Source: a virus. From it: a stretch of DNA of 31,960 nucleotides. A model generated the notes under the pieces. It saw nothing but the letters and a program-made list of their open reading frames with translations. It did no database searches and was not told where the DNA came from. Positions 1 through 11,698 of the stretch are shown piece by piece. The DNA is taken from the IMG/VR virus record IMGVR_UViG_3300043427_002899, positions 1 to 31,960 of that record, one strand, 5' to 3'. A program made the translations under genes and the position numbers. Position 1 is the stretch's first letter. Every line of letters starts with the position of its first letter.

Positions 1-2
1 TA

Positions 3-212
3 AGAGACTTAAAAATAGCAAAACGTCAGATGCTTTTTCGCCCCTGGGCAAAGCGTCATATTGCAATGGCTGCTGCAATTAGGGCTGAGGCGGGAATGCA
101 GTTAATCAGAAGCATGAAAGAGCTACAGGACAAAATTCTTGAAAGCACTGGGCAAGATGAAGATATGCGCCCAATCACACTAAAACAGATGCTGAAGATC
201 AATGACGAATGA
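3..212 (+). CDS. Partial hypothetical protein, 3' end
   Basis: The reading frame is open to the left edge of the window, so this is probably the C-terminal part of a longer gene; an internal ATG at 30 would give only 60 residues. The product is a basic-then-acidic helix-rich segment (for example MKELQDKILES) with no motif I recognise. The last codons overlap the next gene, whose ATG at 202 lies inside this frame, which suggests translational coupling. Function unknown. Confidence 0.5.
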   Translation, partial: RDLKIAKRQMLFRPWAKRHIAMAAAIRAEAGMQLIRSMKELQDKILESTGQDEDMRPITLKQMLKINDE

Positions 213-531
213 ACAGCTTTTGATTGAAGAGTGCAGCAAGTTTGCTCTTTATGTTGCCAATCAAGATGCAGATGCTTGGAATAGTCTTTGCCGAGATTTG
301 ACATCCATCTGGAAGGAGAACACAGGCGAGGAAAGAATTTTTGATTTTCTTGGCTTTGACCGTTGTCACAAAACAGTTGGAGGCATGTTTGGGAATTACT
401 TTCACGCCTATTGCTTGGATGAATTGAAGAATCTTTTTTATCAGCACAGTCGAGCAGTTATTGCTCTGGCTTCACAGGAGATTCTTTTTCGCATCAAGGC
501 CGAGCTTGAGCTTGGCAATTATTACGAGTGA
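202..531 (+). CDS. Small phage protein of unknown function (109 aa)
   Basis: The start ATG at 202 is preceded by AAGATCA, the same start context used by many genes of this arm, so it is preferred. The protein begins MTNEQLLIEECSKFA and is acidic and mostly helical, with no signal peptide, membrane segment or metal-binding motif. Its first residues resemble those of the 54-residue gene at 4968 (MTNDQ..LLIEA), a weak hint of shared ancestry. It overlaps the preceding gene by 11 bases and lies 8 bases before the next. Family not recognised. Confidence 0.75.
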   Translation: MTNEQLLIEECSKFALYVANQDADAWNSLCRDLTSIWKENTGEERIFDFLGFDRCHKTVGGMFGNYFHAYCLDELKNLFYQHSRAVIALASQEILFRIKAELELGNYYE

Positions 532-539
532 ACTTAATC

Positions 540-956
540 ATGGAAACAGCAGAAGCTTGCATTGGTAACCCGGTCCTTCGTTACATGACGGAGGCATTAT
601 TGTTTTCCGCCAGTATTGAAGACCCTTCAATTGACAAGAACTATACCATTTGCGACATTGATAAAGATTGCCTGAACAAGCTTTATGCTGAGTTTCAGCA
701 ATTTATCGACAAGTGTGAGTCTGAGATTACTGCAGAGCTTGGGGGTGATTGGGCCAGTCTTGAAGACTTTTATGTTGGCGGCTATCCAGATGGGTGCGTG
801 GAGAGGGATTTTATCTATACGAGGAATTGTGAAGGGACAGGATTTTGGGACCAGGGGCGATGGGATGCAAGAGTTTCGCGTATTTTGTCAAACGCAGCGC
901 ATCAATTCACTCAACTTGAGTGTTACGTGGGCGACGATGGTGTAGTTTATTTCTGA
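540..956 (+). CDS. Conserved phage protein, GTGFWD family (138 aa)
   Basis: The ATG at 540 follows TTAATC, a start context also seen at 7587 and 10148, and is preferred to an in-frame GTG at 528. The second half carries DFIYTRNCEGTGFWDQGRW and, at the C-terminus, CYVGDDGVVYF. I recall this pattern (D-F-x-x-T-R-N-x-x-G-x-G-F-W-D ... Y-V-G-D-D-G) from a small protein family common in phages of many hosts. No biochemical function is known to me. The gene is followed by a stereotyped TGATTTTTTATTCAC spacer leading to the next gene. Confidence 0.85.
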   Translation: METAEACIGNPVLRYMTEALLFSASIEDPSIDKNYTICDIDKDCLNKLYAEFQQFIDKCESEITAELGGDWASLEDFYVGGYPDGCVERDFIYTRNCEGTGFWDQGRWDARVSRILSNAAHQFTQLECYVGDDGVVYF

Positions 957-977
957 TTTTTTATTCACAACAGAACA

Positions 978-2450
978 ATGCAGCAAAGGCAAAAGAGCTA
1001 CATCACTTGCACTAAGATTGCGACTTTTCGCAATGGGATGAAGGATACGCCAAATGGCGGCAAGATGTCATCCAAGAGTTTTACGCTTTTGGCATTTGAG
1101 AAAGAGGATGGCATTGTGTTTAATTGTAGGGCTAGAGATGTGAATCTAGACAAGGGCAGTTTTGGCGATTACTTTAAGTACAAGTTTCAGATCAGAAAAA
1201 ATAAGGCGGGTGAAACAAGATTCATATTCTATAAGTTGAATGAGCTTGGGGCAATGAGGCCTGTTTCGACTTCAAGCCCACTGCAGATGCGTAGCAAGAT
1301 TCGCTCCGTGTTTCTTAATGACAAGCGCAAAAAAGGCAAGGCGGCTCCAGGCCCAGAAGATTATCTTTACATCGCTCAGCAAAAAAGATTGCTGTCCGTG
1401 GTTCGTGGTTTTCTTCGCAAGAAGGGGGTTTCTTTTAAGTGGCTCAGCGATGATCCTTGCTTTTTGATGCTGCAGCTTTGCTATCCAGGGACTCGCGACT
1501 TGGATAAAAAGACAATGGCTCATTTGTCTGTTGGGCGATTTTTTACAGATGACCCGCTCAAGTTAGCACTTAGGACAAAGGGCAAAAGAAGCAGGAGGCT
1601 TTTGTATGAAGCGATTAAGAAGCATCCAGAGGGCGCTCAGGTGATACTATTTATGGCTAAATACTTGCGTATTCATCGCTCTCTAGACGCAGCGCAAACT
1701 TACTTGAATTTTGTCGTTGAAGATCTTCGTAGTCATACTCTTCATGATGGCTATGGATATTCGCTTCACAAACTTAAAGTTAAAGATGTTAAATTTATAG
1801 ATAGGTTGAACGAGAGAGAGATAGCCTTGCAGGTTGTTGGCAACAATCGACTATTTTTTGATACAAAGACAATGATAGATCAATTGAATGCAAATCTAGT
1901 AGGGGGTTTTGGGTATCAAGAAATTCGCTATACGACTCTCAGAGAGTTACATGATCAGCTCGTGCAACTTTTGCAAGGGGGTAGGCGAAACAGTATATAC
2001 ATATTTGAGCACTATGAGTTCACGGACAAATGTGTTCACATTCAGTTTTGCGAAAGACTGAAAAAGAATTTCAAAAGCGAAGAGTATGAAGTTGTTTACC
2101 CAAGTTCAACAAATGAGCTTCAATGGCAGGCGTCACAAATGCGCAACTGCGCTTTTTCGTATGCAGATAGAATCAAGAGTGGTAAGTATGTAATTTTTTG
2201 TCTTAAGGATAAAAATGGATTGGCTTATATGCTTGGATACAGATTGAAGATACTGGCCGGTGGTAAAGTGATTTGCTTTTTTGATCAAGCAGTTGCTCAT
2301 TGCAATGGCAGGATTGATAAAGATTTAAAACAGCAAATATTGATTGCGGTTAGCGATGCCGTGAGTGGAGATGGTTGGTCTTTTTCTGATTTAACTTATC
2401 CGTTTCAAGCGGAGTACGAGTGCGAATTTGCGCAGCACTTTGCGCAGTAA
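978..2450 (+). CDS. PcfJ-like protein (490 aa)
   Basis: This is the largest gene of the left arm. The start ATG at 978 has the AGAACAATG context. The C-terminal third contains ELQWQASQMRNC (M388-R-N-C391) followed by SYADRIKSGKYVIF (about 394-407), then a strand-rich stretch and VAHCNGRIDKDL. This matches the hallmark of PcfJ-like proteins: an A-x-x-M-x-N-C box, then Y-A-x-x-I-x-x-G. The N-terminal 350 residues are basic, helix-rich and not recognised. PcfJ was first named from a conjugative plasmid; its biochemical role is not established. The gene sits upstream of promoter cassette 1, in a separate transcription unit. The assignment rests on the motif only. Confidence 0.6.
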   Translation: MQQRQKSYITCTKIATFRNGMKDTPNGGKMSSKSFTLLAFEKEDGIVFNCRARDVNLDKGSFGDYFKYKFQIRKNKAGETRFIFYKLNELGAMRPVSTSSPLQMRSKIRSVFLNDKRKKGKAAPGPEDYLYIAQQKRLLSVVRGFLRKKGVSFKWLSDDPCFLMLQLCYPGTRDLDKKTMAHLSVGRFFTDDPLKLALRTKGKRSRRLLYEAIKKHPEGAQVILFMAKYLRIHRSLDAAQTYLNFVVEDLRSHTLHDGYGYSLHKLKVKDVKFIDRLNEREIALQVVGNNRLFFDTKTMIDQLNANLVGGFGYQEIRYTTLRELHDQLVQLLQGGRRNSIYIFEHYEFTDKCVHIQFCERLKKNFKSEEYEVVYPSSTNELQWQASQMRNCAFSYADRIKSGKYVIFCLKDKNGLAYMLGYRLKILAGGKVICFFDQAVAHCNGRIDKDLKQQILIAVSDAVSGDGWSFSDLTYPFQAEYECEFAQHFAQ

Positions 2451-2471
2451 GTGCCACGCAGTTGTGTCAGG

Positions 2472-2560
2472 CGAAAAATTACTTTTATATTTGCTTGACA
2501 GCAGGGACCATTGGTGCTACTATTATGAATGTCGGGGCGAAGCAGCTGCTCTCAACCGAC
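2472..2560 (+). promoter_or_regulatory. Promoter/leader cassette 1
   Basis: An A/T-rich block (AAAAATTACTTTTATATTTGC) leads into TTGACA at 2495-2500, a 17-base spacer and TACTAT at 2518-2523. The predicted start is near 2530. The RNA would begin with GTCGG (2531-2535), able to pair with CCGAC (2556-2560), and AGCAGCTGCT inside the loop can also fold. The stem sequence differs from the other four cassettes but the architecture is the same. It drives the gene at 2592. Confidence 0.8.
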
Positions 2561-2591
2561 TTCAGTCAATTTATTTTATCAATTCAGATCA

Positions 2592-2948
2592 ATGAATTAC
2601 GTTATGCCTGAACTTGTAGATCCACGCCCGATTGATCCCCCGGAAGAAGATTGGCCAGAAACACAGTCCGAGTGTATTGTTGATGGAAGTTGGGGGATTT
2701 ACGTTCCCCAGCGTTTTTGTGAGCGTTACAAAAAGATTGATAGCGTTAGTCAAGACGATTGGGATATTTGTCTATTTGGCCCAGAGCATGAGCTGTATTG
2801 GGAGGCGTGGGATGAGATCTTGAATGATTGGACGTTTGAAGAAACAGATAGTAATGGCGGCGTCTGGAAGATTTACATTTCTCAGGACGGTGACTTGTTT
2901 CAATGCAGAGAGTTTGTTCGTGCCGAGGGGCGCGATGATATTGATTGA
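2592..2948 (+). CDS. Small acidic phage protein (118 aa)
   Basis: First gene of the unit driven by cassette 1. The ATG at 2592 has the CAGATCAATG context and is preferred to upstream in-frame codons that would lie at the predicted RNA 5' end. The protein is strongly acidic and tryptophan-rich, with the segments DPRPIDPPEEDWPETQSE near the start and WGIYVPQRFCERY and YWEAWDEILNDWTFEE further on. No catalytic motif, signal peptide or membrane segment is seen. The layout (Trp/Asp-rich, about 120 residues) resembles other uncharacterised small phage proteins. Function unknown. Confidence 0.8.
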   Translation: MNYVMPELVDPRPIDPPEEDWPETQSECIVDGSWGIYVPQRFCERYKKIDSVSQDDWDICLFGPEHELYWEAWDEILNDWTFEETDSNGGVWKIYISQDGDLFQCREFVRAEGRDDID

Positions 2949-2986
2949 TTTATCTTTAAGAACCGTATTGAATTAACGTATTTGCC

Positions 2987-3298
2987 ATGAAACGATTTAA
3001 GCTTGCACTTATTTTTTCACTTGCTTTTCTGCCCCAAGCACTTTCTTCTCGCGCACTTGCTGGCCCTGTCTGGGCCGACATGATTGCACGTTCGCATTGC
3101 GAATATCTTGCGATGGGGATCAACTGGAAGAAGTCTATCGAAATGGCGCTTAGCGATAATTCGACTTGGATGTCTGAACTTACAGCGGCTGGCAATCATG
3201 CAAGCACGATCATTCTTTATTCAATTACGAGCCGTTGCAATAACTTGAATACTGAGGCCTACAACACTCACAAACAAACCAGTGGAGGAATTATTTGA
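2987..3298 (+). CDS. Predicted secreted protein with signal peptide (103 aa)
   Basis: The N-terminus is a typical Sec signal: MKRFK, a hydrophobic core (LALIFSLAFLPQAL) and SSRALA before GPVWAD, giving a likely cleavage after residue 26. The mature part of about 77 residues contains two cysteines (in SHCEYLAMG and SRCNNLN) that could form a disulfide. That suits a periplasmic or envelope location, unusual among early-type phage genes. There is no lipobox. A contribution to envelope modification or superinfection exclusion is inference only. The start ATG at 2987 lacks a Shine-Dalgarno. It overlaps the next start by four bases. Confidence 0.75.
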   Translation: MKRFKLALIFSLAFLPQALSSRALAGPVWADMIARSHCEYLAMGINWKKSIEMALSDNSTWMSELTAAGNHASTIILYSITSRCNNLNTEAYNTHKQTSGGII

Positions 3299-3606
3299 TC
3301 GTGACAAAATCAATTCAGATTTCCTATTCACACGAAAGCAAGAGCATCAGCAACACAGAGAAAATAGTCGCACTTAAGAACGAGTTACTTGCTGTTCTTG
3401 AGCAAGACGGCAAGCGAGATATTACACAAGTAGAGTTGAGTGGGATTGAGAATGATATTTATGAGTTTACTGAAGCTGTAGATGAATGGTACGATTACGA
3501 TCCATCCCCTCAATATTTGTATGACAATGATGCGGGCGAACCACTGCTTAGCGCAGCAGAAAGATGGAACACTGCGTTTACAGAAAAACAAGCACTGCAT
3601 TCCTGA
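3295..3606 (+). CDS. Hypothetical acidic protein (103 aa)
   Basis: The start is taken as TTG at 3295 because GGAGG (3284-3288) lies six bases upstream; this is one of the few clear Shine-Dalgarno sites in the left arm. A GTG at 3301 is the alternative. The TTG overlaps the stop of the secreted-protein gene, so the two are probably translationally coupled. The product is acidic, with EAVDEWYDYDPSPQYLYDND in the second half and no recognised domain. Function unknown. Confidence 0.65.
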   Translation: MIVTKSIQISYSHESKSISNTEKIVALKNELLAVLEQDGKRDITQVELSGIENDIYEFTEAVDEWYDYDPSPQYLYDNDAGEPLLSAAERWNTAFTEKQALHS

Positions 3607-3609
3607 AAA

Positions 3610-3738
3610 ATGAAAGATTTTATTACAGCAATCAAGCTCTGGCCTTTGCTCTTGAGGCAATCAAAAGCAGCAGACGTAGAGCTTCTTAATACTGCTTTCT
3701 TTTTGAAACTTAACTCATCCTCTCCATCTATTCAGTAA
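3610..3738 (+). CDS. Small hypothetical protein (42 aa)
   Basis: A short frame starting at ATG 3610, three bases after the preceding stop and ending two bases before the ATG of the next gene, so it fills the gap exactly. The peptide begins MKDFITAIKLWPLLLRQSK, a possible amphipathic or membrane-associated helix, and has a serine-rich tail. No Shine-Dalgarno is visible. Coding status rests on the fit between neighbours only. Confidence 0.4.
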   Translation: MKDFITAIKLWPLLLRQSKAADVELLNTAFFLKLNSSSPSIQ

Positions 3739-3740
3739 CA

Positions 3741-3941
3741 ATGATGTATTCAACTATTGCATTTATTCTTCTCGCACTTGCTTCTGTCGTGCTGTCAGTC
3801 GAAGCTCTTTTTATGCGAAAGCGAATCAGAAAACTTGAGCGTCACATGCGTTTTGTTTGGGAGTCGAGCAAGAGTAGAAATCGTTTGTCATTTGAGAAAC
3901 CAGTTACCCGTAGAGAAGTTAGCTTTGATGTTGAAAAGTAA
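3741..3941 (+). CDS. Small single-pass membrane protein (66 aa)
   Basis: The ATG at 3741 follows AGTAACA, close to the local start context; a second ATG follows at once. Residues 5-24 (TIAFILLALASVVLSVEALF) form a clear transmembrane helix, followed by a strongly basic segment (MRKRIRKLERHMR) expected to stay in the cytoplasm. The remainder is charged. The size and layout are seen in small phage membrane proteins, including holin-like and superinfection-exclusion proteins, but no family is recognised. The stop abuts the next ATG. Confidence 0.7.
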   Translation: MMYSTIAFILLALASVVLSVEALFMRKRIRKLERHMRFVWESSKSRNRLSFEKPVTRREVSFDVEK

Positions 3942-4139
3942 ATGGAATTAGGCAAGAATCGAAAGATAAAGATTCTTCTGATGTCACTTGCATACATGTA
4001 TAAGTATGGGGAGCCATTTGTTGATTTAGTCAAAGGTGGTTCCCCTGAAGAAAATGCAAGTGCGTGGAAGATATTGAAAGAGCAGATTAAGCAGCTTCAC
4101 TCAGAGCTGCGAGACAAGCTTGAGGGCCAGGACTCTTAG
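3942..4139 (+). CDS. Hypothetical protein (65 aa)
   Basis: The ATG at 3942 follows the previous stop directly. The protein is basic at the start (MELGKNRKIKILLMSLAYM) and ends in a probable amphipathic helix rich in K, E and Q (ILKEQIKQLHSELRDKLEG). No family is recognised. The gene contains the only reverse-strand copy of the iterated nonamer CGCACTTGC (4056-4064). Confidence 0.6.
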   Translation: MELGKNRKIKILLMSLAYMYKYGEPFVDLVKGGSPEENASAWKILKEQIKQLHSELRDKLEGQDS

Positions 4140-4302
4140 ATTCGCCCTGAGCCCTGCGCAGATGCCCCCGCAAGGGGTCTTTGCTGAGCCAAGAGATTCA
4201 GTCTTACTGGCTGAAGATCGCGGCTCTCAGAGGCTTCTGCAGACATACACCATTGGTCCAATCACAGAAAACTGGCTTTTATTTTTAGCAAATGAAAAGT
4301 TA
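4140..4302. other. Non-coding gap, GC-richer
   Basis: This 163-base gap has a GC-richer first half with a small hairpin (CCCC CGCAA GGGG near 4165) and then AT-rich DNA up to the zinc-ribbon gene. An open frame runs through it from 4120, but its translation (RFALSPAQMPPQGVFAEPRDS) is low-complexity and overlaps the preceding gene, so I do not call it coding. The stretch CTCTCAGAGG here resembles TCTCAGAGCC at about 12010. Confidence 0.4.
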
Positions 4303-4560
4303 ATGACGACGAAAAGCACTTCGCTTAGGACTGCGATTATCACAGGAATTAATCACAAGCAGCAACTTTTTGGATGCAAGAGTAGATACGTTAAGACGAA
4401 AGGGGGGTTCTATATTTGCGCAAAATGCTGTGAGAGCGAACGCAACAGATTTGCGCTTGACGACCTTTGGCTTGTTGTTAAAGATTCAGTCAATAGAAAA
4501 GACCCCTTCTTGTTTTGCGATAATTGCTCCAAGAGAATTGAGATGTTGCACTCGCGATAA
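4303..4560 (+). CDS. Small zinc-ribbon-like protein (85 aa)
   Basis: The ATG at 4303 follows AAGTTA and starts the part of the frame that looks like protein. Two CxxC knuckles are present: C39-A-K-C42 and C72-D-N-C75, separated by 29 residues, the usual arrangement of a zinc ribbon. The rest is basic (GCKSRYVKTKGG). Such proteins often bind DNA, RNA or RNA polymerase; which applies here is not shown. The gene ends just before promoter cassette 2. Confidence 0.65.
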   Translation: MTTKSTSLRTAIITGINHKQQLFGCKSRYVKTKGGFYICAKCCESERNRFALDDLWLVVKDSVNRKDPFLFCDNCSKRIEMLHSR

Positions 4561-4575
4561 AGCGTAAATACAGCT

Positions 4576-4655
4576 AAAAATTACTTAAAGATAAGCTTGA
4601 CAGAGAGCGTTGTATATGGCATAATTGAGTCATGCGAGCGCAAGGTGCGTCTCGT
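4576..4655 (+). promoter_or_regulatory. Promoter/leader cassette 2
   Basis: The conserved block AAAAATTACTTAAAGATAAGC runs into TTGACA at 4597-4602, a 17-base spacer and CATAAT at 4620-4625. The predicted start is A4632. The transcript begins AUGCGAGCGC; GCGAG (4634-4638) pairs with CTCGT (4651-4655) and CGC (4639-4641) with GCG (4647-4649). A pyrimidine-rich leader then reaches TTAGATCAATG at 4679. Confidence 0.85.
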
Positions 4656-4678
4656 TTTCTTTCTTTCTCTTTAGATCA

Positions 4679-4966
4679 ATGGACATTCGACAGGTTCAAA
4701 GTTTTAAGATTACGACATCGCTCGATGATTTAGTTCGTGATTTTAGGCGCAATCCTTTTGCAAATGAAGCGCGAGAAGCTTTTATTTTTGAATGTCGCAA
4801 TTATCGCGGCGAAGAAAAGTATAAGCTCTGCGTTCTTGAGTCAACTGCTCAGCTTTCTTTGCAGAGGGCCTTGGAGTTGCAGCAAAAGAATCCTGATCTT
4901 GTTTGCGTGCAAGTCGAAAAGCTAACGACTGGCACTGTTTTTAATTACCCCATCGCTCAGTTTTGA
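4679..4966 (+). CDS. Small phage protein (95 aa)
   Basis: First gene after cassette 2. The ATG at 4679 has the TTAGATCAATG context, 47 bases after the predicted transcription start. The protein (MDIRQVQSFKITTSLDD...) has alternating strand and helix character, with FIFECRNYRGEEKYKLCVLE in the middle. No motif is recognised. The following gene begins one base after this stop. Confidence 0.8.
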   Translation: MDIRQVQSFKITTSLDDLVRDFRRNPFANEAREAFIFECRNYRGEEKYKLCVLESTAQLSLQRALELQQKNPDLVCVQVEKLTTGTVFNYPIAQF

Positions 4967-4967
4967 T

Positions 4968-5132
4968 ATGACTAACGATCAAAAGTTTTTGCTTATTGAA
5001 GCAATGCGTCAGTATGGCGGCAACTTTGTTAGCAAACTTGCAGATGCAATGACTGCAGCAGATCCAGAAAACTTTAAGCGTCTTTGCGATGCTTTTCCTG
5101 ACATTGTTCAAAAATACAGCCAATTCAAATGA
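4968..5132 (+). CDS. Conserved small phage protein, YGGNF family (54 aa)
   Basis: An ATG one base after the previous stop opens a 54-codon frame that ends overlapping the next ATG (AAATGA at 5128-5132). The product contains MRQYGGNFVSKLADAM, then ADPENFKRLCDAFPDIVQKY. I recall this pattern (Y-G-G-x-F ... L-A-x-A ... A-D-x-x-N-x-x-R-L ... A-F-P-x-x-x-x-x-Y) from a short protein common in phages of many hosts. Function unknown. The coupled layout and family resemblance make it convincing despite its size. Confidence 0.8.
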   Translation: MTNDQKFLLIEAMRQYGGNFVSKLADAMTAADPENFKRLCDAFPDIVQKYSQFK

Positions 5133-5335
5133 CTAATTACGCAATCGACATTTCAGAGATGCAGACACTTCAGGGCGAGATTGAGATGTCTCGCCGTCTG
5201 AAGGCTCTTAATTGGCAGCGAACTGAAAGATTCACTTCGCATCATGTTTACAAAAATGGTGGCGGCAAAATTATTGGCGTCACTGTTTTTATGCCTAATA
5301 TTGGGCCTGGGGAACATATTCATTACGTTCTTTGA
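5129..5335 (+). CDS. Small phage protein (68 aa)
   Basis: The start overlaps the stop of the preceding gene (ATGA arrangement), implying translational coupling. The protein has a charged helical first half (MQTLQGEIEMSRRLKALNW) and a glycine-rich strand-forming second half (NGGGKIIGVTVFMPNIGPGE). It belongs to the unit driven by cassette 2. No domain is recognised. A TGATTTTT spacer follows the stop. Confidence 0.75.
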   Translation: MTNYAIDISEMQTLQGEIEMSRRLKALNWQRTERFTSHHVYKNGGGKIIGVTVFMPNIGPGEHIHYVL

Positions 5336-5368
5336 TTTTTAATCAATCAATTCACTTACATCAGAACA

Positions 5369-6166
5369 ATGTTTGACTTTCAACGCTGCACTGAAATTCT
5401 TGAGATTCAAGCCAAATATGGTTTTGACAAAAAACGAATTGGCAACAATACTTATCTTCGTCGTTTGAATGATAAAGAGTTTGCTATTGCACTGCACCAA
5501 ACAGATGTAGTTGTAGTCTTTGAGCGTAACGGGCAAACTGTTTTTCGTCTTAACTCAGGCGGATACAAGACGACGACTACGAAAGATAGGTTGAATACTT
5601 TGACCCCTGCGCGTATTTATCAGAAGCGTGGGGTTTGGTATTTGAACGAAGATGGATATACTGGCGATGGGAAAAATGATGTAGTTTATTTTGATGGGAT
5701 CGAGGTAGATGAGCAAGGGCGAGTAATCAATAACGATTCCGCCCCGCCGCATTTTCTCAAGAAGAAAAAGATTCTAGATCGTTTGATTAATGAATACATT
5801 CGCGGTTTCGCCAAAGACGCGCTTGAGAATGGACTTGGCAAGCCAGATAGCGGAGGATGTTTGCTGTGTACTGTGTACGCCGGTAAGCATGAGCAAGATA
5901 GCGCGGAGCATATTTGCTCTCATCTTTACGAAAAGTATTACACTCCAAACTTTTTGTATTACTGTCTAAAGATTCGCAATTACAGCAATCCTTCGCTTAT
6001 TTGGGTGATGATGGCGCGAGATTGTGAGCAAGGGCGAGACGAAGCGCTGAAGCGTGAGCTTCGATATGGGTTTGGGAAGATGCAAGACAAGCTGCTAAAG
6101 GTTTTTAGTATTGAAGAATACGAGGCTGTATTGGCAGAGCAGAAAGAAATGCAATCAGTTGCGTAG
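5369..6166 (+). CDS. Conserved phage protein, IGNNTYL family (265 aa)
   Basis: The ATG at 5369 has the CAGAACAATG context. The N-terminal part, about residues 22-95, contains RIGNNTYLRRL, the segment FAIALHQTDVVVVF, then LNSGGYKTTTTKDRLN and RGVWYL. I know this series from a widespread phage protein family of unknown function, in which it defines a small beta-rich domain. The C-terminal half, starting with GGCLLC, then AEHICSHLYEKYYTPNFL and GFGKMQDKLL, is a second helical module that in some phages is also found next to such domains. No enzyme motif is evident; the lone GGCLLC Cys pair could bind metal with H residues downstream. Last gene before cassette 3. Confidence 0.8.
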   Translation: MFDFQRCTEILEIQAKYGFDKKRIGNNTYLRRLNDKEFAIALHQTDVVVVFERNGQTVFRLNSGGYKTTTTKDRLNTLTPARIYQKRGVWYLNEDGYTGDGKNDVVYFDGIEVDEQGRVINNDSAPPHFLKKKKILDRLINEYIRGFAKDALENGLGKPDSGGCLLCTVYAGKHEQDSAEHICSHLYEKYYTPNFLYYCLKIRNYSNPSLIWVMMARDCEQGRDEALKRELRYGFGKMQDKLLKVFSIEEYEAVLAEQKEMQSVA

Positions 6167-6169
6167 AGC

Positions 6170-6255
6170 AAAAATTAGTTAAAGATAAGCTTGACACGGC
6201 AACCCTTATACGTTACAATTGAGTCATGCAAGCGCAGCCGTGCTCTGCGCTTGCT
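6170..6255 (+). promoter_or_regulatory. Promoter/leader cassette 3
   Basis: The block AAAAATTAGTTAAAGATAAGC precedes TTGACA at 6191-6196, a 17-base spacer and TACAAT at 6214-6219; the predicted start is A6226. The transcript opens with a perfect 10-bp stem, GCAAGCGCAG (6228-6237) pairing with CTGCGCTTGC (6245-6254) around a 7-base loop. This is the most stable leader of the set. The block starts four bases after the upstream stop codon. The leader ends CTCAGATCAATG at 6280. Confidence 0.88.
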
Positions 6256-6279
6256 TTTGTTCTTTACGCTCTCAGATCA

Positions 6280-6468
6280 ATGACGACTTACAAGACAATT
6301 CTTTTTCGTTTTGATGGCCCGAACAAAACTCTTGATCGTGGATTGACGCTTGAGGAGGCGAAAGAAATTTGTAAAGATCCTGATACTTCTTCTCGCACTT
6401 GCGAAAAAGCTGCAAACTTTAAGCGTTGGGGCGATGGCCCTTGGTTTGTTGGATACGAAGAAGATTGA
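6280..6468 (+). CDS. Conserved small phage protein, RGLTLEEA family (62 aa)
   Basis: First gene after cassette 3, with an ATG at 6280 in the CAGATCAATG context; an upstream in-frame ATG at 6226 coincides with the predicted RNA 5' end and is part of the hairpin. The sequence contains LDRGLTLEEAKEICKDP, then TSSRTC and GPWFVGYEED at the C-terminus. This order is the signature of a very common small phage protein (R-G-L-T-L-E-E-A-x-x-x-C-x-D-P-x-T-S-S ... G-P-W-F-x-G-Y-x-E). No function is known. Confidence 0.88.
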   Translation: MTTYKTILFRFDGPNKTLDRGLTLEEAKEICKDPDTSSRTCEKAANFKRWGDGPWFVGYEED

Positions 6469-6499
6469 TTTTATTTAACCGCAACTTTGCATTAGATCA

Positions 6500-6916
6500 A
6501 TGAAAGCATCACGCATTGCAGAACGGCTTCAGATTTCTTTGTTTGAAGCGAATGTTGCACTTAGCATTATTCGTTGCAGAATCAACCCCGAAAACTTTCC
6601 CAAGCGCTTTCCTCGCACTTGCGGCTGGGTTCAAAAGTGTTATCACAAGCCAAGGCTGAATGAAATTGCGCTTGAAGCTTTGGATGAGTTGCTGAAAACT
6701 TATGGAGTTGAGGCAATTCACGATGAAAGATTTCATCGTCCTTTCGATAGTTACTTTGGTGACATCGTTGCCAGTTATCTAAATAACGGTGACACTTACG
6801 CAACGACAATCGTACTTGATCATATTGATGACAGGTGGCGATTGATGAGTTGGGGCGATTTTGTAGAAGGGCTTGATGAGAAAGCAGAGAAAGAAGAACA
6901 ATACGTTTGTCAATAA
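6500..6916 (+). CDS. Conserved phage protein, YGVEAI/GDTY family (138 aa)
   Basis: The ATG at 6500 has the TTAGATCAATG context. The first 60 residues look like a helical, possibly DNA-contacting module (MKASRIAERLQISLFEANVAL). From about residue 65 the protein matches a family I know from many phages: ALDELLKTYGVEAI, then SYFGDIVASYLNNGDTYATT, then DHIDDRWRLMSWGDFVE. Function unknown; the family often sits in clusters of small early genes, as it does here. Confidence 0.85.
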   Translation: MKASRIAERLQISLFEANVALSIIRCRINPENFPKRFPRTCGWVQKCYHKPRLNEIALEALDELLKTYGVEAIHDERFHRPFDSYFGDIVASYLNNGDTYATTIVLDHIDDRWRLMSWGDFVEGLDEKAEKEEQYVCQ

Positions 6917-6950
6917 GCTTTGATCTACTTTTTATTTATTTTTAAAACAA

Positions 6951-7304
6951 ATGACTGAATACAACGCCTTGATTTCGATTTCATCTCTCCCCAGTCTTGA
7001 ATCTTTTGACTCTGTAGTAAAAGCAGAGCACAGAAAGATTCATGACGGCGATCAGCTGATTGTGTTTTTTAGGAATAGCTATGGCGCAAGTGTTGTAAGA
7101 CATAGTTATTCGTATGGAGGTACGGAGGGCTTTTATGAACTTGCAGTAATCCGAGAGCCCGAGAGCGAGGATGAAGAATTTGTTATTGATTATGATACTT
7201 CGCTTGGTTGTGATGTTATCGGATGGCTTGATGGGCAGGAAGTTGTAGATAAGCTTAAAGAAATTCAATCTTTCCCCAACTACGCAATTAAAATCAATGT
7301 CTGA
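6951..7304 (+). CDS. Conserved phage protein, VVRHSYSYGG family (117 aa)
   Basis: The ATG at 6951 follows AAAACAA, a variant of the local start context. The protein contains YGASVVRHSYSYGG, then EGFYELAVI and CDVIGWLDGQEVVDKLKEI, the order seen in a widely distributed small phage protein of unknown function (x-x-x-V-R-H-x-x-S-Y-G ... G-x-x-E-x-A-V ... D-V-I-G-x-L). An acidic linker (EPESEDEEF) separates the two parts. The stop overlaps the start of the next gene. Confidence 0.82.
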   Translation: MTEYNALISISSLPSLESFDSVVKAEHRKIHDGDQLIVFFRNSYGASVVRHSYSYGGTEGFYELAVIREPESEDEEFVIDYDTSLGCDVIGWLDGQEVVDKLKEIQSFPNYAIKINV

Positions 7305-7578
7305 CTTTCAAGAAAACCCACTGGATTACGCATTGCAGCTGATTGAAGAAGATCGTTGCGACAAAGAGCAATTATTAATTACTTGCTTGAAGTTTATGTC
7401 TGCGCAAGACATAAGAGATATGCTTGATGACAACGAGCTATCTCCTCGTTTTGATACATCTTCTGGTTTTGATACAGAGGGGGATCAGTTTTTCTTTTCT
7501 AGGGATGAGATTGGCCCGGAAGAACGCAACGCCTGCGATCATTACAACGAGCGTTTTGCCTACCCTTACGTAGATTGA
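7297..7578 (+). CDS. Conserved small phage protein, RDMLDxNELSPRF family (93 aa)
   Basis: The ATG at 7297 (AAATCAATG) overlaps the end of the preceding gene by eight bases. The centre of the protein reads CLKFMSAQDIRDMLDDNELSP, followed by RF and acidic residues; this is characteristic of a small protein found in many phages. The C-terminus is acidic and aromatic (CDHYNERFAYPYVD). Function unknown. Its stop is followed by TGATTTTAATC, leading straight into the next ATG. Confidence 0.82.
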   Translation: MSDFQENPLDYALQLIEEDRCDKEQLLITCLKFMSAQDIRDMLDDNELSPRFDTSSGFDTEGDQFFFSRDEIGPEERNACDHYNERFAYPYVD

Positions 7579-7586
7579 TTTTAATC

Positions 7587-7841
7587 ATGAATTACTATCG
7601 CCTTCTTTCTGAGGCTGTTAAAATTAACAAACAGCTGATTGAGTTTCAAGATCAAGGAATTATTGATTTGCCGTTGCAGGAGCGAGCAGATGAGATACAC
7701 AATATTTTTTATACCAAGGCGCCCTCTGGTTATTTTCAAGAATATGTGCTTGCAGTTCATACACGTACTGGCCGTGCAACTTGGCTTTGCGACAAGCCTG
7801 GAGTTAATGAGTTTTTGAAACGATTGGGGGTTAATTGGTAA
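7587..7841 (+). CDS. Small phage protein (84 aa)
   Basis: The ATG at 7587 follows TTTTAATC, matching the start contexts at 540 and 10148; an in-frame TTG at 7575 overlaps the previous stop and is less likely. The protein begins MNYYRLLSEAVKINKQLIEF and contains GYFQEYVLAVHTRTGRATWL, which resembles the strand pair of other short phage proteins. No domain is recognised. Last gene of the unit headed by cassette 3. Confidence 0.75.
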   Translation: MNYYRLLSEAVKINKQLIEFQDQGIIDLPLQERADEIHNIFYTKAPSGYFQEYVLAVHTRTGRATWLCDKPGVNEFLKRLGVNW

Positions 7842-7855
7842 AGATAAAGAAGCTA

Positions 7856-7936
7856 GAAATCAGTTAAAGATAAGCTTGACATACCAGGCCTTATATGTCA
7901 TAATTAAGTGATGCAAGCGCAGCCATGCCTTGCATT
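7856..7936 (+). promoter_or_regulatory. Promoter/leader cassette 4
   Basis: The block AAATCAGTTAAAGATAAGC precedes TTGACA at 7876-7881, a 17-base spacer and CATAAT at 7899-7904, with a predicted start at A7911. ATGCAAG (7911-7917) pairs with CTTGCAT (7929-7935), so the hairpin begins at the very first transcribed base. A T-rich leader ends TTAGATCAATG at 7963. Confidence 0.85.
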
Positions 7937-7962
7937 TGTTTTGTTCTTTTTCTCTTAGATCA

Positions 7963-8367
7963 ATGCAGACTTCTACTTTGACTCGCCCTTGCACTTTGAC
8001 TTTTGATGAGCTTCAGCAAAACCAATATCTTTTTAATAAGATCAATAGTTTGTGCGGGCTGAGCGAATACAAAATTCACAAGGCGCAGTTAGGTAAAGCT
8101 TACGATTATTACGATTTCAGCAACGGTACAAATGCTTGGCGCTTTGATGGTTTCATCACAGATGCGCAATGGAAAAAGATTGCACAACTTTGCATTCGTT
8201 TCAAGGCTGATATTTCTGAAGTAATTCGTGGTTTGACTTTTGATACAGAGCGAATTTCTGTTGTTGATGGCGAGCATCGTTCAGATTACTTTGTCCCTAC
8301 GACGCTGAAGGGCTGGATTGGTGAGGTTTTCTTTGGGATTGACGAGATGGGCGAAAGTAATACTTGA
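7963..8367 (+). CDS. Hypothetical phage protein (134 aa)
   Basis: First gene after cassette 4; the ATG at 7963 has the TTAGATCAATG context. The protein begins MQTSTLTRPCTLTFDELQQ and contains AYDYYDFSNGTNAWRFDGF, then WKKIAQLCIRFKADISEVI, which suggests a mixed alpha/beta fold. There is no membrane segment or catalytic signature. I do not recognise the family. It ends in a TGATTTTTACTTGCAATTCAC spacer. Confidence 0.78.
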   Translation: MQTSTLTRPCTLTFDELQQNQYLFNKINSLCGLSEYKIHKAQLGKAYDYYDFSNGTNAWRFDGFITDAQWKKIAQLCIRFKADISEVIRGLTFDTERISVVDGEHRSDYFVPTTLKGWIGEVFFGIDEMGESNT

Positions 8368-8402
8368 TTTTTACTTGCAATTCACTTTTATCTATCAGCA
8401 CA

Positions 8403-8873
8403 ATGTCACTTTTTGATTTGACCCCGAGCAACACAATCAGCACTTCTCAGATTAGACTTGCACTTATTGCAAGAAAATCTGAGATAGCAAAGGCGCATCA
8501 GGGATTTCCTAACATTTTTGCTGAGGAGTTTTACAGGACTTCAGTAAAAGATATTGACAGCTTTCTTTTTTATATTGATGGTAGTAACACAATCACTGCC
8601 ATCAAAGATACGGAAAGCGATTTTACTGCAATCGAGTTTACTATTGCAGAGCTGCAAACAAAGATTGATGGACTTCCGCTTGATGGATACTTTAGGCGAG
8701 AGAAAGATCAGCTTTGGTATTACTTTATTTGCGAAGATAAGCAGGTTGTTGAGCAAAAGTACGAGCTTCTCGATTTTTGTTTGAACGGGAAATGGATGTC
8801 TGTTGCCTCGATTTCAACTTTTAATGAGTTGAATCTTGTTGGGCAGGAGTTGCGTTATTTAGTCCTTGCTTGA
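8403..8873 (+). CDS. Hypothetical phage protein (156 aa)
   Basis: The ATG at 8403 has the TATCAGCACAATG context, nearly identical to the leader of the gene at 9408. The protein (MSLFDLTPSNTISTSQIR...) has an N-terminal helix and then beta-rich sequence (IDSFLFYIDGSNTITAI; GYFRREKDQLWYYFICED). No motif is recognised. Confidence 0.75.
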   Translation: MSLFDLTPSNTISTSQIRLALIARKSEIAKAHQGFPNIFAEEFYRTSVKDIDSFLFYIDGSNTITAIKDTESDFTAIEFTIAELQTKIDGLPLDGYFRREKDQLWYYFICEDKQVVEQKYELLDFCLNGKWMSVASISTFNELNLVGQELRYLVLA

Positions 8874-8888
8874 TGTTTGCACTTAGCT

Positions 8889-8927
8889 CTGTAGCAATAC
8901 AGGGTTTTCTGCAGATTTCGTATCTGC
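8889..8927 (+). other. Two tandem intergenic hairpins
   Basis: CTGTA-GCAA-TACAG (8889-8902) is followed by GGTTTTCT, and GCAGAT-TTCGT-ATCTGC (8911-8927) follows directly. Together they occupy most of the gap between the genes at 8403 and 8950. The first could be a weak terminator or processing site; it lacks a strong GC stem. Confidence 0.4.
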
Positions 8928-8949
8928 TATTCACCTATTCATTGGATCA

Positions 8950-9372
8950 ATGAAAAAGACGCTGTACTTTGAAAAGTTTGACAAGGTTCTCAATATTGAG
9001 ATCGAGCTTAAAGAAAAAGACGGTTTCAATCGTCTTTCTGTTGTTGGGTTTTTGTATGGCGAGGATGAAGAGTTGATTTCCTCGGGGCAGATCGTAGAGA
9101 TTGCCAGGCTTTTTGCCCCCGCTGAACTTTGTAATATTTGGGAATATTGGCACTTAAATGATATGCGAGCTGGGACAAAGACACAGACAGGATTAATTCG
9201 TTTTGAGAATAGTCTGCGTTCTCAGTTGGGTATGGGGCAAATGGATTACACACTAGCCTGTTTGTTTTTGCAAGAAAAGGATTTGCTTGTTGATGATGGA
9301 TATAGGTACGGAACGGCCTGGCTGAAAGAAGAACTGCCCCAAGAGGTTATTGATTACGTTCACTCACTTTGA
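8950..9372 (+). CDS. Conserved phage protein, WHLNDMRAG family (140 aa)
   Basis: The ATG at 8950 has the TTGGATCAATG context. After a beta-rich first half (MKKTLYFEKFDKVLNIEIEL) the protein contains LCNIWEYWHLNDMRAGTKTQ and later YRYGTAWLKEELPQEVIDYV. These two blocks, W-H-L-N-D-M-x-x-G and Y-G-x-A-W-L-x-E-x-L-P, recur in a small phage protein family without known function. The stop is followed by the stereotyped TGATTTTTGATTCACTGCAC spacer. Confidence 0.83.
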   Translation: MKKTLYFEKFDKVLNIEIELKEKDGFNRLSVVGFLYGEDEELISSGQIVEIARLFAPAELCNIWEYWHLNDMRAGTKTQTGLIRFENSLRSQLGMGQMDYTLACLFLQEKDLLVDDGYRYGTAWLKEELPQEVIDYVHSL

Positions 9373-9407
9373 TTTTTGATTCACTGCACACTTTATCTAT
9401 TAGAACA

Positions 9408-9809
9408 ATGATTGCAATTACTCAAGATCAAATCAGCCAAGAGATTTTTGATTGGCAGGATCTCAGTAGGTTTCGTGGGGGCAGATTTGATTCAAAAGAG
9501 ATCTGCGTTTTTAGCGATATGGGCGAAGAGATGTTTTTAGATTTCTCAGTCAGAGAATACACTTCTGACGAGGAGGATTTCTTTGGTACTGCTGAAATTT
9601 GCTGGCGTATCATTGTTTTTCTTAAAGAGCGCAGGTGCGTAACAAGTAATTTACAGGAATACGACGTAGAGTTTCCTGTAGAGATTGGGAATGAATACTC
9701 ACAGGAAGAACATGCAATGGAGTTTTGTGAGTACGCACTTGCAAGTTTTCTTAAGCATCAGAATTTTTCACGTCTGCCTTATGTAAATTTGCACCCGAGC
9801 GAGCTTTGA
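9408..9809 (+). CDS. Hypothetical acidic phage protein (133 aa)
   Basis: The ATG at 9408 has the TATTAGAACAATG context. The protein is acidic (EYTSDEEDFFGTAEICW; EYSQEEHAMEFCEY) with one basic patch (FLKERRCV). No family is recognised. It contains a copy of the nonamer CGCACTTGC at 9734-9742 and ends just upstream of cassette 5. Confidence 0.75.
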   Translation: MIAITQDQISQEIFDWQDLSRFRGGRFDSKEICVFSDMGEEMFLDFSVREYTSDEEDFFGTAEICWRIIVFLKERRCVTSNLQEYDVEFPVEIGNEYSQEEHAMEFCEYALASFLKHQNFSRLPYVNLHPSEL

Positions 9810-9817
9810 TATAGCTC

Positions 9818-9896
9818 AAAATTACTTTAATATAAGCTTGACCATCGGTGCCTTATATGGCATAATTAAGACATGCGAGGCAAGGTGTGTCTCGCT
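9818..9896 (+). promoter_or_regulatory. Promoter/leader cassette 5
   Basis: The block AAAATTACTTTAATATAAGC precedes TTGACC at 9838-9843, a 17-base spacer and CATAAT at 9861-9866; the predicted start is A9873. GCGAG (9875-9879) pairs with CTCGC (9891-9895). Compared with cassettes 3 and 4 (GCAAG/CTTGC) one A-T pair is exchanged for G-C on both sides. The leader ends TTAGACCAATG at 9920. Confidence 0.85.
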
Positions 9897-9919
9897 TTTG
9901 TTCTTTTATTTTTAGACCA

Positions 9920-10102
9920 ATGAAACAGATTTTAGCTGCCGCTTTTGTTGCGTTTTCTTCCTCAATGGCAGTTATTGTTGGGGGAACGTTCTTTCTTTTT
10001 GTGTTTGCGTCGTTGATTTCGCAAGATCAGCGAGTTTACAACTCTTGTTTACTTAAGCACAAATCGGCGGATTATTGCCGATTGATTGTGAGTGGTAGAT
10101 AA
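9920..10102 (+). CDS. Small membrane or exported protein (60 aa)
   Basis: First gene after cassette 5; the ATG at 9920 has the TTAGACCAATG context. Residues about 4-34 are hydrophobic (ILAAAFVAFSSSMAVIVGGTFF, then LFVFASLI), long enough for one membrane helix or a signal anchor. A short polar tail of 26 residues with two cysteines follows (YNSCLLKHKSADYCRL). Function unknown. Confidence 0.75.
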   Translation: MKQILAAAFVAFSSSMAVIVGGTFFLFVFASLISQDQRVYNSCLLKHKSADYCRLIVSGR

Positions 10103-10147
10103 TTTTCACAAGCAGCTTTTATTGTTTTACTATTTCGCTTTTGAATC

Positions 10148-10363
10148 ATGAATGTTTTTGTTTTGCCTACAGGGCGTGAGATTGAGAAAGACGCAAAATA
10201 TTGCGTTGCAACTAAAACTCGTGGACGCTGGCATCACAAGTTTTTTAAGTCACGCAAGGGCGCAGATAACGAGTTTGATTCAACTCGTGCATATCTCAGA
10301 AACCCTGACATGATTGCATGTTATGGGCTTGAAGATGTCAAGTTGATTAAGCCCGTAGTTTGA
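10148..10363 (+). CDS. Small basic phage protein (71 aa)
   Basis: The ATG at 10148 follows TTGAATC. The protein is basic in the middle (CVATKTRGRWHHKFFKSRKGAD) and may bind nucleic acid, but no motif is recognised. The stop is followed by TGATTTTATTCC, the usual spacer type of this arm. Confidence 0.7.
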   Translation: MNVFVLPTGREIEKDAKYCVATKTRGRWHHKFFKSRKGADNEFDSTRAYLRNPDMIACYGLEDVKLIKPVV

Positions 10364-10386
10364 TTTTATTCCATCGCTTTTTTGTT

Positions 10387-10551
10387 ATGCCTTATTTTGT
10401 TAATCGTCGCTCAGGAAGATACGACGACACTTTCTATGAATTTAACAACAAGCAAGAAGCTTTAGACATGGCTTCAAGGCTTCAGCCATCTGAGCATGGG
10501 CGAGCGTTTTACTACGTTAGCTCTACATGCAAAGACAACTGGCTTGAGTAG
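10387..10551 (+). CDS. Conserved small phage protein, YYVSS family (54 aa)
   Basis: The ATG at 10387 is chosen over the TTG at 10360, which overlaps the previous stop. The protein begins MPYFVNRRSGRYDDTFYEF, continues KQEALDMASRLQ and ends AFYYVSSTCKDNWLE. This order (strand, helix with E-A, then Y-Y-V-S-S/T-x-x-C-K-x-W) matches a small phage family I recall; its function is unknown. Confidence 0.72.
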   Translation: MPYFVNRRSGRYDDTFYEFNNKQEALDMASRLQPSEHGRAFYYVSSTCKDNWLE

Positions 10552-10574
10552 TTTTAATTACAACAAACATTGAA

Positions 10575-10715
10575 ATGGACTACGAACAAATTGCACAAGA
10601 GGATGCACTTTTCCCTTGGCTTGCCTCAGATTGCATGGGCGATCAATGCGAGGAAGCGACTGGTGATTTCTTTGATGATCTCAATGAGTTTGAAGATTGC
10701 GAAGATTTTGAATAA
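10575..10715 (+). CDS. Very acidic small protein (46 aa)
   Basis: The frame opens at ATG 10575 after ACATTGAA and fills the space between the genes at 10387 and 10752. Sixteen of 46 residues are D or E and only acidic charge is present (FFDDLNEFEDCEDFE at the end; no lysine or arginine). Such a charge pattern recalls DNA-mimic proteins that phages use against host nucleases or restriction, but that is inference; there is no family match. It could also be a short structural or chaperone-like protein. Confidence 0.6.
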   Translation: MDYEQIAQEDALFPWLASDCMGDQCEEATGDFFDDLNEFEDCEDFE

Positions 10716-10751
10716 ATAGTTATTTATCAACAATCACATCACATCAGACCA

Positions 10752-11261
10752 ATGAACTCTTCTGAACTTGCAAAAAAACTTACAGAGATCGACATCAAAA
10801 GTCTTTGCGAGACTGGGCAGGTTTTTCTTGAAGGACAATCAGCTTATTATGTAACCTTCAAGCTTGTACCTGATGAGTGTACGCAAATTTCAGATTTCGA
10901 TAGTTATGGACAGGTAGCATGGGCGAGATCAAACAGTCATCGCCCCGAAGGTTTTGATGGGGCAGCGCAAATTCTTTTAAGAGGGCGACATGAAAATCTT
11001 TGGTGGCAGCCCTATAAAGATGAAGATGGGAAGATTTACAATTCTCAGCAGGATTTCTTTTTGGTACGCAATCTGGCTGAGTTTGGATTTTATCAGATTG
11101 AGTTGAAGTTGTATGGGCCGTTGACTTCGATTATTGGGACGACGGTTGGAGTGATTGCACAAACCACTCTTTGCGGTATAGATACTTATGAGACCGAGGT
11201 GGCATCGGAGTATATTCGTGATATGATTAACGACTGGACTTCGCAGCTTGAAAATGCTTGA
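10752..11261 (+). CDS. Conserved phage protein, RPEGFDGAAQIL family (169 aa)
   Basis: The ATG at 10752 has the CAGACCAATG context. The central segment contains YGQVAWARSNSHRPEGFDGA, then AAQILLRGRHENLWWQPYKD and DFFLVRNLAEFGFYQIELKL, followed by YGP. This sequence of blocks is known from a widely spread phage protein (P-x-G-F-D-G-A-A-x-I ... W-Q-P ... L-x-E-F-G-F). Its function is unknown. The C-terminal part (YIRDMINDWTSQL) is helical. It overlaps the next gene by eight bases. Confidence 0.82.
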   Translation: MNSSELAKKLTEIDIKSLCETGQVFLEGQSAYYVTFKLVPDECTQISDFDSYGQVAWARSNSHRPEGFDGAAQILLRGRHENLWWQPYKDEDGKIYNSQQDFFLVRNLAEFGFYQIELKLYGPLTSIIGTTVGVIAQTTLCGIDTYETEVASEYIRDMINDWTSQLENA

Positions 11262-11565
11262 CAAACAATCGAAGCAATTGTTTTGGGTAATGGGTGCAAT
11301 CGAAAGATTGCAAGGGCTTGGATTTATTCTTGGTAGCCCTAGGCATGTAATTGTTGACAAGATAGATGAGTGGAATCAGATTGATTCCGAGCGTCATGAA
11401 CTTATGGATGACGAGTCACTAGAAAGTGCTACGGCTTATATTTGTGAAACCAACGGGGCAAAAGACGAAGACGCCGCAGTTATTACGGAGGCTGTTTTCA
11501 GCTTTAGAGATCGCAGGGAAGACATGGTTAAGTTCGCTATGAAGAACAATTTAGTGAAAAATTAG
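11254..11565 (+). CDS. Hypothetical phage protein (103 aa)
   Basis: The ATG at 11254 lies within the end of the previous gene; a TTG at 11248 is the alternative. The protein is helical (MLDKQSKQLFWVMGAIERLQ) and acidic in the centre (RHELMDDESLESATAY), with no recognised motif. It precedes a degraded copy of the promoter cassette. Confidence 0.7.
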   Translation: MLDKQSKQLFWVMGAIERLQGLGFILGSPRHVIVDKIDEWNQIDSERHELMDDESLESATAYICETNGAKDEDAAVITEAVFSFRDRREDMVKFAMKNNLVKN

Positions 11566-11590
11566 TTGTAGATAACTTCGATTAAGCGGA
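11556..11590 (+). promoter_or_regulatory. Degenerate promoter-cassette remnant
   Basis: AAAAATTAGTTGTAGATAAC here matches the cassette block AAAAATTAGTTAAAGATAAG with three changes, but TTGACA has decayed to TTCGAT and no good -10 box follows at 17 bases. No leader hairpin is left. It is likely a dead copy. Confidence 0.6.
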
Positions 11591-11698
11591 CAAGTTTCCG
11601 TGAATGGTAATTGGAAAAAAGGTTTTACATCTTCTGTTATGTTTGAAGTTGAAGATAAGCTGTACGAGGTTGCAGTAATTCATGTTTGCGATAATTGA
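11576..11698 (+). pseudogene. Probable gene remnant downstream of decayed cassette
   Basis: The frame from 11576 to the stop at 11696-11698 lacks a convincing start (only GTG at 11600 or ATG at 11642). It encodes a protein-like end: NWKKGFTSSVMFEVEDKLYE, then VAVIHVCDN. Together with the broken promoter remnant directly upstream, it looks like a cassette whose 5' part was lost. A short functional gene from the GTG is the alternative. Confidence 0.45.

Follow-up and report, generated by a model that had tools for sequence, protein, structure and literature searches.

The window analysed here is the whole of IMG/VR virus record IMGVR_UViG_3300043427_002899, 31,960 nucleotides in length. Its left part holds a dense block of small plus-strand genes in which one type of promoter recurs and, in most copies, a stem-loop, below called the leader hairpin, directly follows the −10 box. 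This repeated promoter with a hairpin conserved in structure is the new element of the locus and the part worth following. The original prediction had described a cluster of at least ten genes from widespread phage families, with one repeated promoter type and a common early role in host takeover. All ten were present as plus-strand open reading frames (ORFs) with the predicted starts, and the dense small-gene cluster was recovered, but it comprises about 30 genes and begins to the left of the window. The block, the ten genes (named by their first positions), a further core gene, and the right limit are as follows.

202–13465, plus strand: early-type block of about 30 small genes, supported by collinearity with the relative G003, orthologues in seven lineages, and selection on the genes
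540–956, plus strand: gene 540, 138 amino acids, phrog_1915 family, core, 7 of 7 lineages
4968–5132, plus strand: gene 4968, 54 amino acids, putative phrog_15317 family, core, 7 of 7 lineages
5369–6166, plus strand: gene 5369, 265 amino acids, phrog_554/Kyano_Gp96-like N-terminal part and Cys/His-rich second half, 4 of 7 lineages
6280–6468, plus strand: gene 6280, 62 amino acids, 4 of 7 lineages
6500–6916, plus strand: gene 6500, 138 amino acids, outside relatives not found, 3 of 7 lineages
6951–7304, plus strand: gene 6951, 117 amino acids, phrog_4074 family, 4 of 7 lineages
7297–7578, plus strand: gene 7297, 93 amino acids, outside relatives not found, 4 of 7 lineages
8950–9372, plus strand: gene 8950, 140 amino acids, relatives in Caulobacter and Lysinibacillus phages, 2 of 7 lineages
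10387–10551, plus strand: gene 10387, 54 amino acids, relative in S-CBP4 upstream of the RNA polymerase gene, 2 of 7 lineages
10752–11261, plus strand: gene 10752, 169 amino acids, outside relatives not found, 2 of 7 lineages
12165–12644, plus strand: gene 12165, core, 7 of 7 lineages, not among the ten
12806–13465, plus strand: small terminase subunit, right limit of the block

Two contigs (G001 and G002) were near-identical to the window, and G003, a relative of 98,034 nucleotides, is probably complete since its ends are identical over 127 nucleotides. The left part of the window is collinear with the 45.8–60 kb region of G003, mostly at 65%–75% nucleotide identity. Orthologues of nine of the ten genes were found in G003, and an orthologue of 10387 in G004. 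Between the window and G003, the ratio of nonsynonymous to synonymous changes (pN/pS) was 0.17–0.46 for nine of the ten genes and 0.16–0.53 over the 24 genes tested, with synonymous divergence (dS) often saturated; gene 12165, which had no Pfam match, gave 0.16. The nine are therefore real protein genes, and all testable block genes are under purifying selection.

Gene presence was compared in seven lineages with blocks (the window, G003, G004, G006, G007, G008, and G010). Genes 540, 3942, 4303, 4968, and 12165 occur in all seven, and 3295 and 9408 in six; four of the ten (5369, 6280, 6951, and 7297) occur in four, 6500 occurs in three, and each of the remaining three of the ten (8950, 10387, and 10752) in two. 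The block consists of a small inherited core and a large changing remainder with frequent gain and loss. Where present, 6280 is the best conserved of the ten, with 84%–85% identity in three lineages and 62% in the fourth.

Five copies of the repeated promoter were found in the window.

2495–2523 (match at 2493), plus strand: promoter 1, TTGACA-17-TACTAT, 48.3 bits, ahead of 2592; same position at G003 46775
4597–4625 (match at 4595), plus strand: promoter 2, TTGACA-17-CATAAT, 58.5 bits, ahead of 4679, 4968, 5129, and 5369; same position at G003 48759 and G004 12928
6191–6219 (match at 6189), plus strand: promoter 3, TTGACA-17-TACAAT, 53.6 bits, ahead of 6280, 6500, 6951, 7297, and 7587; same position at G003 50817 and G004 15594
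7876–7904 (match at 7874), plus strand: promoter 4, TTGACA-17-CATAAT, 60.9 bits, ahead of 7963, 8403, 8950, and 9408; same position at G003 53291
9838–9866 (match at 9836), plus strand: promoter 5, TTGACC-17-CATAAT, 60.7 bits, ahead of 9920, 10148, 10387, 10575, 10752, and 11251; same position at G003 55271

A weight matrix built from nine copies found these five sites (48–61 bits) and seven in G003; scores ranged overall from 28 to 63 bits against a maximum of 5 in shuffled sequence, the training sites scoring high by construction and the G003 sites at 45108, 46775, and 53291 lying outside the training set. All matrix sites in the window and G003 are on the plus strand inside the block, and none was found elsewhere in the 98-kb G003. 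Near-consensus −35 and −10 boxes are confined to the block, as expected of an early block under host sigma-70 promoters. A generic sigma-70 scan showed no enrichment (32 sites versus 30.9 expected), so the signal is a specific element rather than consensus matches in general. Eight genomes carry 2–9 copies each of the near-consensus sigma-70 promoter, and the diverged lineages G004, G006, G007, G008, G009, and G010 each carry a version of their own. The first genes behind the promoter are 4679 and 6280 in the window, G003, and G004, and 2592, 7963, and 9920 in the window and G003; the pairing of genes with promoters is thus partly conserved between lineages. The predicted repeated promoter type proved stronger than claimed, since the element is restricted to the block, keeps its position, and is joined to a conserved leader hairpin and, in the sub-lineage of the window, to a start-site motif.

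The leader hairpins of the window are the following.

2531–2560, plus strand: leader hairpin 1, the weakest of the five
4634–4655, plus strand: leader hairpin 2
6228–6254, plus strand: leader hairpin 3, 10 pairs, minimum free energy −17.6 kcal/mol, followed by TTTTGTTC
7910–7936, plus strand: leader hairpin 4, minimum free energy −13.6 kcal/mol
9875–9895, plus strand: leader hairpin 5, followed by TTTTGTTC

Over 55 unselected plus-strand promoter matches from eight blocks, the 44 nucleotides after the −10 box folded at a mean of −13.8 kcal/mol versus −7.1 kcal/mol in segments further downstream, and the fold downstream of seven minus-strand matches was −6.4 kcal/mol. The stems identified at 44 sites average 12 pairs and start 6.5 ± 2 nucleotides past the −10 box, where the transcription start would be expected. 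Further contigs agreed with this pattern; several of them re-sample genomes already counted, and L044 alone is clearly independent. No such folding was seen in the cultured cyanophage controls S-SRM01 (13 sites) and S-CREM1 (12 sites), the promoter–hairpin architecture was absent from the more distant terminase relatives G012 and L066, and the Rfam 15 covariance models gave no match to window positions 1–16900 at E values up to 1.

Since stem lengths differ, an arm-swap test was used in place of a covariation table. The 5′ arms are distinct in 43 of the 44 hairpins; own arms paired at −15.6 kcal/mol versus −8.4 kcal/mol for arms swapped within the same genome, a contrast whose size is inflated because the 44 hairpins were picked once the hairpin had been seen, and none of 2,000 permutations reached the observed sum. 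Each copy thus keeps its own complementarity, and the leader hairpin is conserved in shape, not in sequence. Such copy-specific complementarity favors an RNA structure over a DNA operator. The inverted repeat after the promoter could be read as an operator for a phage repressor, since its location would suit a protein blocking transcription, but arms that differ between copies in the same genome are incompatible with a sequence-specific protein, and we consider this reading very improbable. Inverted repeats in the promoter spacer (e.g., ATACCACTA...TAGTGGTAT) were detected in 14 of 48 promoters at p < 0.05, mainly in G007, G008, G009, and G010. They are possible operators of a lineage-specific regulator and suggest that part of the group has some operator; however, even as operators they would be an element separate from the hairpin.

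The strongest rival to an RNA-stabilizing leader is attenuation, because U-rich sequence follows about half of the hairpins, among them four of the five in the window. The hairpins would then be promoter-proximal terminators or attenuators, most transcripts would end after about 45 nucleotides, perhaps as small RNAs, and expression of the genes would need read-through allowed by the state of the phage or cell. Six T in eight bases follow four of the five window hairpins, and two window hairpins with short and perfect stems were called terminator-like. However, intrinsic terminators should have a U-tract directly after the stem in all copies, whereas about half of the 44 hairpins lack one, and it is wholly absent at G003 48759, at both G006 sites, and at two of the four sites in G009. 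Terminator-like sites in the block were mildly above chance (16 versus 11.5 ± 2.7). Attenuation therefore appears unlikely to us.

Past the hairpin, the leader is pyrimidine-rich, with TTTGTTC frequent, and in 47 of 48 cases the promoter leads to an ATG that starts an ORF of 40 codons or more. Many starts carry a common motif, as in the following example.

6494–6502, plus strand: start-site motif RGMHCAATG of gene 6500

The motif also precedes genes 202, 978, 2592, 4679, 5369, 6280, 7963, 8403, 8950, 9408, 9920, and 10752. It was found 13 times in the window, mostly as AGATCAATG, versus 0.8 expected, each time at a gene start, and Shine-Dalgarno-like sequences were not enriched in the window. 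In G003 it opens ORFs at four of four occurrences in the block and at none of six outside the block on the same strand; it is absent from G009 and G010. The start-site motif is a sub-lineage feature and was possibly carried along with duplicated leaders.

Structural genes and ThyX are located in the right part of the window.

16824–17474: ThyX, free-standing, 216 residues
From 17512: large terminase
From 19033: portal protein
From 23409: major head protein

A match to a major tail protein in this part was weak. Aligned to viral contigs, the terminase identified 59 loci, the majority with more than 50% identity, while no match was obtained in 84,980 cellular genomes. Alignments of 6280 and the terminase were scanned over the same genomes for a prophage or host origin; nothing was found, and such an origin was dropped. 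The closest cultured relatives of the terminase are the cyanosiphoviruses S-H1 and KBS-S-2A, which share the terminase type at only 35%–36% identity; among the other block proteins, only 2987 was matched in S-H1. The window ThyX is 57% identical to that of S-EIV1. In G003 the ThyX domain forms the C-terminal part of a 576-residue protein (L009 2842–4572), while in the window it stands alone. G003 encodes an RpoD-like sigma factor (L006 3070–3969, minus strand), in which Pfam regions 1.2, 2, and 3 were recognized and region 4 had no Pfam match; orthologues are present in G004 and G006. Its best phage matches include Microcystis phage MaAM05 and the cyanosiphoviruses S-CBS1 and S-CBS3, which have a group-2 sigma factor, a feature in common with G003. 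The genomes of these cyanosiphoviruses and of S-H1 and KBS-S-2A are 30–41 kb in size, in contrast to 98 kb. Since the terminase, ThyX, and the G003 sigma factor resemble cyanophage counterparts, the hosts of this group of uncultured phages of about 98 kb are most probably cyanobacteria.

The sigma factor genes in G003, G004, and G006 raise another reading, in which the block would be accessory DNA of the middle or late phase, transcribed with the phage sigma factor, and its promoters would be unrelated to early takeover. Near-perfect TTGACA boxes, however, suit the primary sigma factor of the host, and the phage protein is without a Pfam-recognizable region 4, the reader of the −35 box, which makes this reading quite unlikely.

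Searches with the ten proteins gave a mixed picture. PHROG matches over most of the family profile were found for 540 (phrog_1915, 4.5e-11, profile positions 18–139 of 141), repeated by the G003 and G008 orthologues, and for 6951 (phrog_4074, 2.4e-17, positions 11–88 of 90; 3.1e-23 for the G007 orthologue). The match of 5369 to phrog_554 (1.2e-7) was limited to the N-terminal 100 of 265 residues and recurred with orthologues from other lineages, and its Pfam match to Kyano_Gp96 (3.4e-5, 24.4 bits) fell just under the cut-off of 27. Protein 4968 matched phrog_15317 (3.6e-5) only at profile positions 50–83 of 103, and its orthologues repeat the match. Among 50,697 phage records, relatives of 540 were present in 140 (Escherichia, Caulobacter, Klebsiella, Brevundimonas, Campylobacter, and others), and relatives of 6951 in 38 (Polaribacter, Pseudomonas, Listeria, Streptomyces, Vibrio, and others). 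The ten proteins were also joined into one tblastn query against these records, and the best 60 of 117 matching records were considered. Among them, 8950 matched records of Caulobacter and Lysinibacillus phages and of uncultured podoviruses, 5369 matched an uncultured phage of 636 kb, 10387 only S-CBP4, and 4968 only S-EIV1 and S-SRM01. In a separate search 6280 had a single marginal match in a Tunturiibacter phage (3e-3), whereas 6500, 7297, and 10752 matched nothing in PHROG, Pfam, or these records. A viral scan using 5369 alone yielded no relatives, and a search of other terminase-bearing contigs with a 6280 profile, made without a positive control, found nothing. Recurrence across phages of different hosts, as originally predicted, therefore holds for about four of the ten (540, 5369, 6951, and 8950, with relatives in phages of other hosts or lineages); 4968 and 10387 recur in other cyanophages only, 6280 weakly, and 6500, 7297, and 10752 not at all in these searches. 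The relatives of 4968 in S-EIV1 (L025 20001–20150) and of 10387 in S-CBP4 (L030 1788–1949) are unannotated there and are apparently missed small genes. One record matching 8950 bears the label "restriction alleviation protein lar"; the label is unverified and 8950 has no Pfam match, and an anti-restriction role was not adopted. Structure prediction for single members gave a confident model for 540 (predicted local distance difference test score, pLDDT, 87.6) and a moderate one for 6951 (pLDDT 66.7), but no solved relative at E < 0.001 for either: the significant fold matches of 540 are all viral with none in PDB, and 6951 matched no solved structure at this threshold.

The ten families had been expected to co-occur in phages at large. 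Among the best 60 of 117 records listed, no place covered two of the ten proteins; judged by the refuting condition given with the original prediction, wide co-occurrence fails and is not supported. The co-occurrence of the ten genes within one phage group is by descent. Of the cultured phages examined closely, only S-CREM1 has two of the ten together, with relatives of 6951 and 5369 located 8 kb apart. This pair is what speaks for a mobile or functionally linked module of ten families travelling between phages; with no listed place holding two of them and presence inside the group varying from 2/7 to 7/7, such a module is rejected as extremely unlikely. In S-SRM01, S-CREM1, and B23, relatives of single members lie within long arrays of small unknown genes, and in CcrBL9 a relative of a block member lies in the terminal repeat; these surroundings, together with the position upstream of the RNA polymerase gene in S-CBP4, fit early or accessory regions.

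Several further features of the block were observed. A PcfJ-like protein (positions 978–2450; Pfam PF14284, 1.4e-7) is inserted between 540 and 2592; the gene is absent from the same place in G003, and the other blocks yielded no copy. The G003 orthologue of 8950 (L008 14342–14635, G003 54342) has an in-frame stop after 97 codons, while similarity runs to residue 140, indicating a decaying gene or a sequence error. In G003, gene 7587 (7587–7841) is matched by a second relative, 49% identical and close to the right end of the block (L008 18007–18267, G003 58007), apparently through a duplication within the block. Dense tandem repeats with units of 18, 21, and 27 nucleotides (AGATAGCGATTGCTA-like) occupy positions 14555–15270, and the array is kept in G003 at 60.7–61.1 kb; it may mark a replication origin or the boundary of early and late genes. 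The adjoining conserved gene 13818, at the right end of the block, weakly matched a replication initiation family (E = 0.0056) and is read by us as winged-helix.

Near-consensus promoters, together with a U-rich leader and a hairpin where the 5′ end is expected, suggest rapid and stable expression soon after infection. We propose, giving it an even chance of being right, that the block is an early accessory region transcribed by the host polymerase into hairpin-protected mRNAs for varied takeover and counter-defence proteins. Host RNA polymerase with the primary sigma factor would read the block from several spread-out near-consensus promoters, five in the window, which would need no phage protein. 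A 5′-terminal stem-loop on each message would hinder decay dependent on the 5′ end (RppH/RNase E type), and the pyrimidine-rich leader would be followed by a start without a Shine-Dalgarno sequence, so that many small proteins would be expressed fast, lastingly, and simultaneously. Accessory genes would be gained and lost between lineages, some drawn from families scattered over many phages, and each protein most probably acts on its own host or defence target. The common early host-takeover role first predicted for the ten genes, like the transcription start, early timing, and mRNA protection, is what we infer; an inventory of takeover and counter-defence proteins most probably fits better than one shared function. 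The spacer inverted repeats and 13818 would be compatible with a later switch-off of the kind proposed for Aca8 in SIRV2 (PMC11065993). Weighing against this proposal, all four matched PHROG families are labelled "unknown function" and a function is known for no block member; the U-rich sequences could make terminators of about half of the hairpins; the 44 hairpins of the arm-swap test were selected with hindsight, which inflates that contrast; G003 encodes its own sigma factor, which might read the promoters instead of the host's; and start sites, timing, and host are all deduced from sequence rather than from mapped transcripts.

A more specific version of the host-transcribed block, which we put forward tentatively and hold to be somewhat improbable, is that freely evolving 5′ stem-loops cap the early units, and phage mRNAs outlive host mRNAs in a decay wave that the phage may promote. 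The T7 gene 10 leader has a 5′-terminal stem-loop comparable to the block hairpins. The mRNA-stabilizing 5′ stem-loops of ompA and papA (Emory, Bouvet and Belasco, cited in PMC3997798) likewise lie at the 5′ end of the message, as the block hairpins would, and such hairpins block RppH and 5′-dependent entry of RNase E (PMC3997798). Unlike these leaders, as described there, the block hairpins are repeated 2–9 times per genome, one per transcription unit, with free sequence, and their stabilizing effect is putative. A marine cyanophage raises host RNase E and shields its own transcripts by antisense RNA (PMC9692554); the hairpin cap would solve this RNA-decay problem in a different way.

By analogy, the best reason to expect takeover and counter-defence functions comes from archaeal viruses, where a shared early promoter marks anti-defence genes (PMC11065993). 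As in the SIRV2-type early genes described there, many small unannotated genes are preceded, individually or a few at a time, by one and the same strong promoter, which was used there to find anti-defence genes. That system differs in its archaeal promoters and viruses and in that timing and several functions were demonstrated, while the block is known from sequence; the account of early genes in that source does not mention a leader hairpin.

Many bacteria-disarming proteins are encoded by phage early genes, whose diversity puts them out of reach of sequence searches. A regulatory cassette conserved in structure provides a candidate list, about 50 promoters with their first genes, without knowledge of the functions. 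The block also offers a natural experiment in the persistence of phage mRNAs against cyanobacterial RNA decay. If the proposed hairpin-capped units are real, uncultured cyanophages could be searched for new takeover and anti-defence genes with the cassette as the tag.

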